Part shown: piece by piece, positions 39,990-48,126 of the stretch
Layout: each line of letters opens with the position of its first letter
Numbering within the stretch: position 1 is the stretch's first letter
Source of the DNA: Polaribacter cellanae
Lineage (GTDB): Bacteria; Bacteroidota; Bacteroidia; Flavobacteriales; Flavobacteriaceae
Assembly (NCBI RefSeq): GCF_017569185.1
Contig: NZ_CP071869.1
Location: 3,400,001-3,464,000, forward strand
Length of the DNA stretch: 64,000 nt
Reading direction: 5' to 3'
The notes under the pieces: model-generated
What the model was told of the DNA's origin: nothing
Databases searched by the model: none
What the model saw: only the letters and a program-made list of their open reading frames with translations
Program-made: the position numbers and the translations under genes

Positions 39990-41492
39990 TTAATGCTTCA
40001 TAAATTTTTTGTTACCAATAGTACCATCTGTTGTTTGGAACTTTAATAGGTAAAAACCATTTGTAAATGCAGACATATCTAAATGTTTCGTATTTAATGC
40101 AGTAGTAATAAGTCTTCCTCCAACATCGTACACTGTAATGTTTTCTATTTCGCTACCAGCAGGAACTTCTATGGTAATATTGCCAGAAGTTGGGTTTGGG
40201 TAAATTTTTGTTTCTTTCGATAAAAAGTTATCTGTAACCGATAAAGAGGTTGTTGTATTTAAATACAACTGCGCCTTGTAGTTACCCCAACTGGCACTTG
40301 AGTCAGTTGTTCTACCCAATAGAATAACATCGTCTTTTCCATCGCTGTTCATGTCGGTTACAATTATTTTACCATTATTAAAACCTCTACCAAAATCTGT
40401 AATAGTAGACTCAGAATCAAAGGGATTGTGTTCCCATTTTTGAAATTTACCATCGACTATTTTAAATGGAACAAGATCATATCTATACCCATTCCAATTT
40501 TTTCCCATTGTAATAAGACTTTCTTTATATCCGTCAGCATCAGTATCTATTAACTTAATTCTCATGGAGTCACCACACGGTATTATTTGATGCTGAGAAA
40601 AATTACCGTTTCCATCATTCAAATAAACCAAAATAAGTCTTGGATTATTTGAAAATGTTGTCACGATGCCAGCTGCAATCCAATCTAAATATCCATCCCT
40701 ATTAATATCATAATAGACACTAACTCCATCTTCTAATGTAGGCAATCCAACATCAGAAACAATATATGTCCCATCTGATTGAAGTTCAAATTTATGATTA
40801 AAACTATTACCATTTTTTGTTCCATGAACGTTCGGTATTAATTTACCTGTATTCATAAGATCAATAACATGTGCGCCGCCACTTACTCCACCAGAACCAT
40901 CAAAAACCTCAACCAAATCACCTGGATTTTGTGGATCATTTTTTACAATTTTTGTTTTATAAATGTTTTCTTCGTGCATCAGACCAGAGAAAATAAGACC
41001 ATCTCCATTTGAATGAGGAATGACAGCAATAGCACTTTTAATTACACCATCTAACTCTTGTGAAAGTTTTAAAGAATCTTTTTTGTACCTATATACATAA
41101 GTACGAGAGGCGTTAAATTTATCCACCCCAGTATTTGCAAAATCAGGATATCCATCATTATCAAGATTCATGAAGGTCGCAGAACCAAAAGTCAGAAACC
41201 TTAAATTATCTGTTGTCCTTTTAATAAAAGTGTTATTTTTTTTCTCAAAAATATATGTAAATGTTTCTAAGGTTCCTAGTTCAAATACACCTTTCGTACT
41301 TGACATAAACAACCATTCACGAACTTGTTTGGTATTTGGGTCTGTGAAAGATGTTGTTGCAATATTTAATCTATCTCCACCAGTTAAATCACCGATATGA
41401 GATTGGTTGTCTTTGTTGTCTAGGACAAAAGACTGTGCTTGTGCTACTCCTGAAACTATCAAGAGAAGCAGCAAATAAATTATTTTTTTCAT
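39990..41492 (-). CDS. secreted FG-GAP/VCBS-repeat protein with T9SS sorting domain
   Basis: 500 residues with a signal peptide (MKKIIYLLLLLIVSGVAQA). Calcium-type repeats typical of FG-GAP/VCBS beta-propellers are visible: NLDNDGYPDFANTGVD, YDINRDGYLDWIAAG, DTDADGYKESLITMG and DMNSDGKDDVILLG. The last 80 residues are a type A T9SS C-terminal domain (IYPNPTSGNITIEVP... ENITVYDVGGRLI... FTNGFYLLKFQTTDG... KKFMKH). It would be exported by the type IX system and attached to or released from the cell surface. It sits alone, with no obvious enzyme domain. Confidence 0.88.
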   Translation of the reverse strand: MKKIIYLLLLLIVSGVAQAQSFVLDNKDNQSHIGDLTGGDRLNIATTSFTDPNTKQVREWLFMSSTKGVFELGTLETFTYIFEKKNNTFIKRTTDNLRFLTFGSATFMNLDNDGYPDFANTGVDKFNASRTYVYRYKKDSLKLSQELDGVIKSAIAVIPHSNGDGLIFSGLMHEENIYKTKIVKNDPQNPGDLVEVFDGSGGVSGGAHVIDLMNTGKLIPNVHGTKNGNSFNHKFELQSDGTYIVSDVGLPTLEDGVSVYYDINRDGYLDWIAAGIVTTFSNNPRLILVYLNDGNGNFSQHQIIPCGDSMRIKLIDTDADGYKESLITMGKNWNGYRYDLVPFKIVDGKFQKWEHNPFDSESTITDFGRGFNNGKIIVTDMNSDGKDDVILLGRTTDSSASWGNYKAQLYLNTTTSLSVTDNFLSKETKIYPNPTSGNITIEVPAGSEIENITVYDVGGRLITTALNTKHLDMSAFTNGFYLLKFQTTDGTIGNKKFMKH

Positions 41493-41930: not shown

Positions 41931-41957
41931 TTGAACCATTTATTCTACATATATTTG
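41931..41957 (+). promoter_or_regulatory. probable promoter of the gat leader and operon
   Basis: TATATTTG at 41950-41957 is an exact -7 box. TTG at 41931-41933 lies 16 bases upstream, slightly closer than the usual 19-22. A start near 41963 would give a leader RNA of about 160 bases to the attenuator. Confidence 0.55.
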
Positions 41958-42018
41958 CTCGCATAAGAATAGATTCTAAAATATACTGAAATAAATTCAG
42001 CATAAAAATTCATCATAA

Positions 42019-42066
42019 ATGACAAATAATAATAACAATCGTAATTTCAATACTCCTAATTTATAG
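42019..42066 (+). CDS. asparagine-rich leader peptide of the gat operon
   Basis: Reads MTNNNNNRNFNTPNL: eight of 15 residues are Asn, five of them consecutive. It is followed within 4 bases of the stop by an antiterminator segment and then a rho-independent terminator, ahead of genes that make Asn-tRNA. The arrangement copies amino-acid leader peptides such as TrpL. I know of no named asparagine leader of this kind, so the role in attenuation is inference from the sequence. Confidence 0.78.
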   Translation: MTNNNNNRNFNTPNL

Positions 42067-42070
42067 GACA

Positions 42071-42124
42071 GGAAGGTTGTTGTTTAAAAATATATAAAGC
42101 CTTCCGATTTGGAAGGCTTTTTCT
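42071..42124 (+). promoter_or_regulatory. attenuator of the gat operon
   Basis: The terminator stem AAAGCCTTCC / GGAAGGCTTT (42096-42120, loop GATTT) runs into a T tract. The upstream segment GGAAGGTT (42071-42078), 4 bases after the leader stop, pairs with AGCCTTCC, the 5' half of that stem, so the two structures exclude each other. A ribosome finishing the leader would cover GGAAGG and let the terminator form. A ribosome stalled at Asn codons would leave it free to form the antiterminator. Confidence 0.78.
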
Positions 42125-42190
42125 TGTCTTGAACTTTTATGTTGAACTGGTTTCAGTATGTTTCAGGATTTTAATTAAAAATTTAAAGAA

Positions 42191-42458: not shown

Positions 42459-43859
42459 ATGGAGTCGCAGATAAAAAAGCTACATCAACAATTGGTGTCT
42501 AAAGAAATTTCGTGTACAGATTTGGTGCAAGAAAAATTAAATTTATTAAAACAAAATACACATAATACTGTCAATTCTTTGTTGGATTCTATGGCTTTGG
42601 AATTGGCTTCTAAAGTAGATACAAAAATTGCAAATGGTGAAGAAATCGGTCTTTTAGAAGGAATTCCATTCGGAATTAAAGATGTGTATATGGTTCAAGG
42701 AACATACACAACTGCAAGTTCGGATTTGTTAAAAAACTACAAATCTTCCTATACAGCAACTTCCATTCAGAAATTATTAGATGCTGGTGCCATTCCTTTA
42801 GTAAAAGAAAATTGCGATAGTTTTGGACATGGTTCTTCTTCTGAAAACACCATTTTTGGTGCTGTAAAAAACGCAACAAATCCCGATTTAGTTGGTGGTG
42901 GTTCTTCTGGAGGTTCTGCTGTAAATGTTGCAAAAGATTTTACAACATTTTCAATTGGTGGAGATACTGGAGGTTCCATTCGTCAGCCAGCAGGTTACAA
43001 TAAAGTATATGGTTTAAAACCAACTTACGGACGAATTTCTCGTTACGGATTAATGGCATACGCATCTTCTACAGATTGTGTTGGGCCGATTGCAAAATCT
43101 ATTGAAGACATTAGAATTGTATTAAATATAATGAGTGGAAAAGATGTTCGAGACCAAACTACTTTTTCTTCGGAAGAAATTTTGGAAGATACTGTCTCAA
43201 ACTCATCAACAATAAAAACAATTGGTTACTTTAAAAATTTTATTGAAAGTGAAGCAATTTCACCAGAAATAAAGCAAGATTTTTTAGCAACTATTGATAA
43301 AATAAAAGCCAAAGGAATTGAAGTAAAAGAATTAGATTTCTTTAATGCGGATATTTTAGTTTCAACTTATTATACGTTGGCAATGGCAGAAACAGCTTCA
43401 AATTTATCGCGTTTAGATGGTACAAATTACGGAGCAAGAATTGAAGGTGAGAATTTAAAAGATACCTATTCAATTACACGTTCAGAAAATTTTTCTGAAG
43501 AATCTAAAAGAAGAATTGTTGGTGGAAATCAAGTTTTATCGCAAGGTTTTTCTGATGAAATTTACTTAAAAGCACAAAATTTAAGAAACCAAATTTCAGC
43601 AAGATTTAGTGACGATTTTAATGAAGTTGATATTATTTTATCTCCAGTAACTCCTGCTAATCCGCCTAAAATTGGCGAGAGCTTAAATGATCCTTTAGCG
43701 ATGTATTTATCTGATGCTTATACAGTTGGATTTAGTTTGGGAGAATTACCAACATTAACAATACCTAAAGGAACAGAAACAGGTTTACAAATTACAGCAG
43801 ATAAGAAAAAAGATGTACAAGCCTTACAATTTGCGAACTTCTTAAACGATATTTTATAA
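42459..43859 (+). CDS. gatA: Asp/Glu-tRNA amidotransferase subunit A
   Basis: The amidase subunit that releases ammonia from glutamine for transamidation of Asp-tRNA(Asn) or Glu-tRNA(Gln). 466 residues with the amidase-signature Ser-cisSer-Lys triad: Lys in GIPFGIKDVY (about 74), the glycine/serine loop VGGGSSGGSAVNVA (about 146) and the nucleophile in IGGDTGGSIRQPAG (about 168). The TAA overlaps the gatB ATG by one base (TAATG), implying coupled translation. Confidence 0.95.
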   Translation: MESQIKKLHQQLVSKEISCTDLVQEKLNLLKQNTHNTVNSLLDSMALELASKVDTKIANGEEIGLLEGIPFGIKDVYMVQGTYTTASSDLLKNYKSSYTATSIQKLLDAGAIPLVKENCDSFGHGSSSENTIFGAVKNATNPDLVGGGSSGGSAVNVAKDFTTFSIGGDTGGSIRQPAGYNKVYGLKPTYGRISRYGLMAYASSTDCVGPIAKSIEDIRIVLNIMSGKDVRDQTTFSSEEILEDTVSNSSTIKTIGYFKNFIESEAISPEIKQDFLATIDKIKAKGIEVKELDFFNADILVSTYYTLAMAETASNLSRLDGTNYGARIEGENLKDTYSITRSENFSEESKRRIVGGNQVLSQGFSDEIYLKAQNLRNQISARFSDDFNEVDIILSPVTPANPPKIGESLNDPLAMYLSDAYTVGFSLGELPTLTIPKGTETGLQITADKKKDVQALQFANFLNDIL

Positions 43860-47342: not shown

Positions 47343-47582
47343 ATGAAAACTCAAACAGCCTTTAGAATCGATAAAACATTGTTAGAAATGATAAAGGAAA
47401 AAGCAAAAAGTTCTAACAGAAGTTTAAATAACTATATAGAATACTTGTTATATAAAGATGTTGGCAATATTCCTAATGAAACTACAATTGAGGCTTTAGA
47501 AGAAGTGAATAGTAATAAAGAGTTACCCTCAATTACAGACCTGAAAGCTTATAAAGAAGAATTATTAAAGTCTAAAAGTTAA
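47343..47582 (+). CDS. ribbon-helix-helix type antitoxin
   Basis: 79 residues. TAFRIDKTLLEMIKEKAKSSNRSLNNYIEYLLYKDV is a typical RHH/Arc fold (basic beta strand, two helices). The acidic C-terminus (EEVNSNKELPSITDLKAYKEELL) would wrap the toxin. It ends in TAATG, overlapping the toxin start by one base. Confidence 0.82.
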   Translation: MKTQTAFRIDKTLLEMIKEKAKSSNRSLNNYIEYLLYKDVGNIPNETTIEALEEVNSNKELPSITDLKAYKEELLKSKS

Positions 47583-47866
47583 TGTATTCTTTAAAAGAAT
47601 CTACACAATTCAAAAAAGATTTAAAAAAGTTAGTAAAGAAAAGTAAATTCGATTTAGAATTAACTTTTGATGTTTTAGAGATTTTACAAATTAGTGGCGT
47701 AAAAGGAATTCCTTCAGAAATGAAACCTCATAAACTAAAAGGAAACTATAAAAATAATTGGGAATGTCATATAAAACCAGATTTATTAATCATTTGGTTT
47801 GAAATTGAAGAAAATTTTACAATTAAGTTGGTTAGAATCGGTTCACATTCAGAGCTTTTCAAATAA
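47582..47866 (+). CDS. YafQ/RelE-family mRNA interferase toxin
   Basis: 94 residues, YafQ-like: STQFKKDLKKLVKKSKFD, then IPSEMKPHKLKGNYKNNWECHIKPDLLIIWFEIEE, and a final KLVRIGSHSELF. The HKLKGNY, WECHI and GSHSELF blocks with their His residues match the YafQ active site. It appears intact. It forms a bicistron with the RHH antitoxin, between two copies of a CGCAAAG-type palindrome. Confidence 0.88.
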   Translation: MYSLKESTQFKKDLKKLVKKSKFDLELTFDVLEILQISGVKGIPSEMKPHKLKGNYKNNWECHIKPDLLIIWFEIEENFTIKLVRIGSHSELFK

Positions 47867-47973: not shown

Positions 47974-48004
47974 TTGCTCAATTTAAAAATCCGTCTTATT
48001 TTTG
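47974..48004 (+). promoter_or_regulatory. promoter of the trp leader
   Basis: TTG (47974-47976), 20 bases, TATTTTTG (47997-48004). The leader ATG is only 7 bases beyond the -7 box, so transcription probably starts at or 1-3 bases before it (leaderless mRNA). Confidence 0.78.
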
Positions 48005-48011
48005 TAGAATA

Positions 48012-48062
48012 ATGAAATCAATTACAAAAAATATATGGTGGTGGAACTCTCTTAATAAATAA
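48012..48062 (+). CDS. trpL: trp operon leader peptide
   Basis: Sixteen residues, MKSITKNIWWWNSLNK, with three tandem Trp codons. It is followed by a transcription terminator and the trp genes. By analogy with classical attenuation, ribosome stalling at the Trp codons when Trp-tRNA is scarce would prevent termination. Confidence 0.88.
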   Translation: MKSITKNIWWWNSLNK

Positions 48063-48126
48063 GTGAGAAGAAAACCTATATTATAAATATACAAAAAAGG
48101 CTTATCTCACGATAAGCCTTTTTTAT
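48063..48126 (+). promoter_or_regulatory. attenuator of the trp operon
   Basis: The terminator is GGCTTATC / GATAAGCC (48099-48118, loop TCAC) followed by T residues. GTGAGA (48063-48068), right after the leader stop, is exactly complementary to TCTCAC at the top of the terminator hairpin (48105-48110) and may form the competing structure. The overlap with the stem is smaller than in the gat attenuator, so the antiterminator assignment is less certain than the terminator. Confidence 0.75.

Follow-up and report, generated by a model that had tools for sequence, protein, structure and literature searches.

The gatC-gatA-gatB::aspS operon of Polaribacter cellanae is preceded by a candidate ribosome-mediated transcription attenuator specific for asparagine. 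We put the probability of this reading, in which the mechanism is predicted from sequence, at about 0.87, and the operon would probably turn on when asparagine-charged tRNA is short. The elements of the switch, their conservation, their alternative folds and the distribution of the genes are directly seen in the window (the whole 64-kb stretch of DNA analyzed here) and in related loci. The original prediction for this window, that an Asn leader peptide attenuates the Asp-tRNA amidation operon, is supported by the co-occurrence of the leader frame with its terminator, by the position of the promoter and by the gene distribution.

An asparagine-rich leader frame upstream of gatC

The 15-residue frame proposed to lie before gatC-gatA-gatB::aspS was confirmed base by base. 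It runs from an ATG at 42019 to a TAG stop codon at 42064-42066 and reads Met-Thr-(Asn)5-Arg-Asn-Phe-Asn-Thr-Pro-Asn-Leu, with eight Asn codons, five of them consecutive (Table 1). The 64-kb window holds no second short frame of this kind. A chance Asn frame was considered and rejected, as none arose in 30 Markov-randomised windows and the frame and the terminator co-occur across loci.

The codons were counted in 55 distinct homologous leaders, relative to the Phe codon. At positions -6, -5, and -4, the AAT/AAC counts are 41/10, 31/22, and 7/48, with few non-Asn replacements, and AAT occupies positions -3 and -1 in all leaders. The exchange of AAT and AAC at -6 to -4, with few other residues, points to selection on the amino acid. 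The Phe codon is kept in 55/55 leaders and the Pro codon in 52/55, for which Asn sensing alone gives no explanation; RNA pairing or an effect of the peptide may account for it instead. In 41/55 leaders, a single sense codon stands between the last Asn codon and the stop, and 3-5 nt separate the stop from the GGAAGG motif in 51/55. Judged from these sequences, the spacing around the leader stop and strand 2 is tuned.

Table 1. Coordinates of the leader, the operon and neighboring features in the 64-kb window of P. cellanae
Feature	Position	Strand	Basis or remark
FG-GAP repeat protein with a type IX secretion sorting tail	39990-41492	-	neighbor of the leader
-7 box TATATTTG, Bacteroidota sigma-A type TAnnTTTG	41950-41957	+	sequence motif only
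Leader peptide frame MTNNNNNRNFNTPNL, then stop	42019-42066	+	8 Asn codons of 15; homologous leaders
Strand 1, AATAATAAC (Asn codons)	42028-42036	+	anti-antiterminator helix with 42076-42084; RNAalifold, 36 leaders
Hairpin TCCTA/TAGGA over the leader stop codon	42054-42068	+	99.4% of cells paired
Strand 2, GGAAGGTT (antiterminator arm), then GTTGTTT (arm for strand 1)	42071-42085	+	sequence pairing
Intrinsic terminator, strands 3:4 and T run	42096-42123	+	10-11 bp stem, covariation
Strand 3, AGCCTTCC	42098-42105	+	partner is strand 2 (antiterminator) or strand 4 (terminator)
gatC, Asn-rich, 88 aa	42191-42457	+	TIGR00135 weak, below cut-off; precedes gatA, conserved in relatives
gatA	42459-43859	+	TIGR00132, E 2e-130 (435 bits, slightly below cut-off); PF01425
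gatB::aspS fusion, 1117 aa	43859-47212	+	GatB part about 1-477; AspRS of bacterial type, with a GAD domain, about 524-1117
YafQ/RelE-type toxin gene	47582-47866		downstream of the gat operon, ahead of the trp leader
Bacteroid-trp leader RF01692 before trpE, frame MKSITKNIWWWNSLNK, then stop	47992-48106		Rfam match

Mutually exclusive RNA helices

The first base of strand 2, GGAAGGTTGTTGTTT, lies four bases past the leader stop. Its antiterminator arm (42071-42078) forms eight contiguous pairs, one of them G-U, with strand 3, which can alternatively pair with GGAAGGCT of the terminator in a stem of 10-11 pairs (42096-42120) followed by T residues. The exclusion between these two pairings of the terminator 5' half was thus verified in the sequence, and 0.2% of random 28-nt stretches from the window pair as well with that half. 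The earlier note had missed strand 1, whose Asn codons pair with strand 2 in a third alternative helix.

The leader of the window folds with a z-score of -3.9 relative to dinucleotide shuffles. Applied to an alignment of 36 distinct leaders, RNAalifold returned the long helix between the Asn codons and strand 2, the stop-codon hairpin and the terminator; the first of these also appears in the window leader's own fold. In the stop-codon hairpin, one pair is changed two-sidedly, from C-G to U-A, in two sequences. The terminator is paired in 96.2% of cells, with pairing and covariation above shuffles (0 of 500), and the antiterminator 2:3 in 96.9%. The proposal that both stems covary holds for the terminator, which varies with compensation; the antiterminator is conserved and shows no covariation because strands 2 and 3 are nearly invariant. 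For the protector helix (Asn codons with strand 2), 94.8% of cells are paired, which is not above shuffles. The full eight-pair 2:3 helix is absent in three of the 36 leaders. When a ribosome footprint was removed before folding, its size and distances being those of typical ribosome toeprints, the 2:3 helix formed in 33/34 leaders for a ribosome stalled on Asn and the terminator in 34/34 for a ribosome at the stop codon.

Promoter position and distribution of the element

The TAnnTTTG box upstream of the frame matches the flavobacterial and Bacteroidota sigma-A -7 consensus (PMC9723704), and the transcript would start a few bases downstream of it. A box of this type lies 10-61 nt before the leader ATG in 36/36 leaders. 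A promoter between the terminator and gatC had also been considered at the outset; no exact TAnnTTTG is found there in any of the 47 leader-bearing loci scored. A similar box stands 15-70 nt before gatC in 56/57 leaderless loci, which is weak evidence since one mismatch was allowed; from sequence, the leaderless operons look directly expressed from a nearby promoter.

Besides the sampled genomes, 80 named loci were compared, including those of Polaribacter, Lutibacter, Flavobacterium, Tamlana and Hyunsoonleella. Over 101 orthologous loci, of which one or two are short upstream and for which the sampled and the named set share some genomes, the Asn frame and a matching terminator are both present in 41, both missing in 60, and never found one without the other, as anticipated for relatives. 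The 36 aligned leaders are the distinct ones among these 101 loci. As 60 of the 101 have the operon without the attenuator, the latter is not essential to the pathway.

A covariance model of the element (R1) gave 37 matches of 99.8 bits or more in 397 Flavobacteriaceae genomes, the next match scoring 53 bits. Among the best 30 of the 37, 29 sit 88-136 nt upstream of gatC, measured from the leader stop to a conserved GatC motif; for the thirtieth, L144, the script recovered no leader frame. Occurrence of the element before other genes was considered and rejected, the matches of 53 bits or less being scattered over many genomes in a chance-like manner. Across the phylum Bacteroidota, 395 sampled genomes yielded only the window's own copy.

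On the GatA tree, the leader-bearing loci lie in one part, a fork of 49 of the 88 rows of which 30 have a leader, and leader presence needs at least 10 changes over the whole tree. A single gain followed by several losses is a possible history, many branches of the tree being weak. Two Polaribacter loci (L047 and L072) have no leader, though close relatives carry one; their upstream region was apparently replaced by other sequence recently. The carriers of the attenuator are a group of marine flavobacteria.

The operon as an apparent route to asparagine

Fusion of gatB to aspS is found in 78/80 related loci, the other two being cut by contig ends. The best PDB match of the fused AspRS is 4wj3, with which it shares an RDHG motif; the second-best, 6hhv, has RDLG instead, and the second, standalone AspRS of the window genome has RDKG. 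4wj3 is an Asp/Asn enzyme and 6hhv an Asp-only enzyme, and the His of RDHG presumably marks non-discrimination in AspRS. From its sequence, the fused AspRS is probably non-discriminating and would make Asp-tRNA(Asn). The tRNA-Asn has U1-A72, which bacterial GatCAB needs in its tRNA (PMC4206432). The tRNA-Gln of the window genome (L173:1501-1573) also has U1-A72, though GlnRS is present.

Of the 149 Flavobacteriaceae genomes sampled, 22 carry the operon-type gatA, and in a 23rd, G124, a contig end leaves only part of the gene. A housekeeping AsnB is found in none of the 22 gatA-positive genomes vs 108 of the 127 gatA-less ones (Fisher 2e-15, the genome lists being matched by hand), and AsnA is absent in all 22. 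As no gatA-positive genome has either housekeeping asnB or asnA, the gat operon is apparently biosynthetic and the cells' route to asparagine. The suggestion that the genome might lack asnS failed, as the window genome has it, without weakening the attenuation idea; asnS and glnS are present in each of the 28 genomes tested, among them the 22 with gatA. A need of GatCAB for Gln was rejected on the same presence of GlnRS. Of the 13 leader-bearing genomes in the gatA-positive set, nine have no AsnB-family gene over the cut-off. In the other four, among them the window's genome, the AsnB-like gene is of another type; the one in the window genome (L148, 403 bits) may provide a second source of Asn.

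Two further observations concern GatC and the asnB genes of gatA-less genomes. The mean Asn content of 105 distinct GatC sequences is 13%, next to 6% for GatA and 5% for GatB::AspS of the window, with Asn runs such as NANQNNNANNTVKNN, an unexpected composition for a gene that opens an operon making Asn; it is 13.9% in leaderless vs 12.2% in leader-bearing operons (p = 2e-4, without correction for relatedness). Twenty regions upstream of asnB in gatA-less genomes (L181-L200) were searched for an Asn leader, and none comparable was found: one 16-codon frame with NNNN, in L198 of the same genus, lacks a terminator and overlaps the promoter box. In these regions, a TAnnTTTG-like box lies near the gene, and a recurring AT-rich motif, perhaps a regulator site, immediately precedes asnB.

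Proposed mechanism and alternative explanations

Transcription would start at about 41960, with a ribosome translating the 15-codon leader as RNA polymerase moves on through the downstream strands. With Asn-tRNA(Asn) plentiful, the ribosome would reach the stop codon and cover strand 2 (GGAAGG begins 7 nt beyond the first stop-codon base), so that strand 3 would pair with strand 4 and transcription would end before gatC. With Asn-tRNA(Asn) scarce, it would stall on the Asn codons and occupy strand 1, leaving strand 2 free (with even the last Asn codon in the A site, GGAAGG begins at least 13 nt further downstream). The free strand 2 would then capture strand 3, and read-through would let the operon be transcribed. 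If no translation took place, the Asn codons would pair with strand 2 and the terminator would form. The loop would be closed by the GatB-fused AspRS, GatA and GatC making Asn on tRNA(Asn). Tentatively, and at appreciably lower probability than for attenuation itself, this may be the first asparagine-specific leader-peptide attenuator and one that also reads the completion of amidation through the flux of the misacylated intermediate. The fused AspRS would load Asp on tRNA(Asn), and elongation factor Tu presumably rejects the product. If Asp-tRNA(Asn) piled up, the leader ribosome would therefore stall as well and GatCAB would rise, so that the switch would monitor the misacylated intermediate and not free Asn only.

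The almost invariant Phe and Pro codons could instead reflect a nascent-chain sensor, in which a conserved NFNNPN arrests the ribosome on free Asn or another signal in a TnaC-like manner. However, the conserved TTTC and CCTAA take part in RNA pairing as well, which is kept in L096 and L107 although Pro has become Ser. The synonymous exchange in the Asn run fits codon sensing, and 15 residues are short for an arrest peptide, which together leave this sensor improbable. Less probable still is a plain intergenic or constitutive partial terminator beside an incidental Asn-rich frame. Asn codons are common in an AT-rich genome and a terminator alone could damp expression, but the frame and the terminator are never apart in the 101 loci, the Asn codons are exchanged synonymously, the promoter box lies upstream of the leader, and randomised sequence yields no such frame; the comparative data already largely contradict this explanation.

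A riboswitch, a T-box or a protein-bound leader could also sense the signal, with translation of the frame being secondary. The leader is well structured, and T-box control of tRNA-dependent amidation, related to Asn, was reportedly described by Saad in 2012 (cited in PMC4206432) for Clostridium acetobutylicum. Yet no Rfam family reaches its gathering score on the leader, which shows no T-box match, and the conserved RNA consists of the frame and the switch with no extra domain of aptamer size, so that we consider such sensing very unlikely. A known Rfam element was likewise rejected, the leader giving only sub-threshold matches to Phe_leader and Thr_leader. Classical attenuation accounts for every part.

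Relation to known systems

Like the trp, his, leu, thr and phe attenuators of Proteobacteria (Rfam Phe_leader, Thr_leader), the gat leader has a short frame rich in codons for the end product, an antiterminator and a terminator that exclude each other, and control codons in a protector pairing. It differs from them in its control amino acid, Asn, and in a product, Asn-tRNA, that is made by amidation. The Bacteroid-trp leader (RF01692) is a Bacteroidota leader-peptide element with the same general architecture, but it has Trp codons (WWW), precedes trp genes and forms a separate family; within the window it matches over its gathering score at the trpE leader only and not at the gat leader. The trpE leader is a second leader-peptide attenuator, 6 kb downstream.

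The C. acetobutylicum T-box is the nearest functional precedent: there too the charging state of a tRNA reportedly sets the expression of the amidation pathway, but the tRNA binds the leader RNA directly and no leader peptide is involved. Deinococcus radiodurans and Thermus thermophilus have AsnRS and GlnRS, and a second AspRS with GatCAB makes Asn on tRNA(Asn) (PMC4206432). The gat operon is alike in function, but their extra AspRS is archaeal in type and separate, whereas that of the gat operon is bacterial, with a GAD domain, and fused to GatB. Leader-peptide attenuation of flavobacterial amino-acid operons has been noted in general (PMC9723704). In the literature searched, with subscription papers mostly outside it, neither an Asn leader peptide nor leader-peptide control of GatCAB was found. 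Within that scope, the claim that no asparagine case over GatCAB and AspRS had been described is borne out, with a T-box for amidation already known: the Asn specificity and the target are new, the attenuation mechanism is not.

Significance

Asparagine would thus join the amino acids sensed by leader-peptide attenuation, with no earlier case in the literature searched and in a setting, the Bacteroidota, where leader-peptide control is little studied. The regulation would be tied to a pathway with a misacylated tRNA as intermediate. The replacement of AsnB by the amidation operon, with or without the switch, is a natural swap that offers ready-made comparisons between close relatives. The switch would also predict under which conditions cells with an AsnRS of their own rely on the amidation route, a question raised in PMC4206432.
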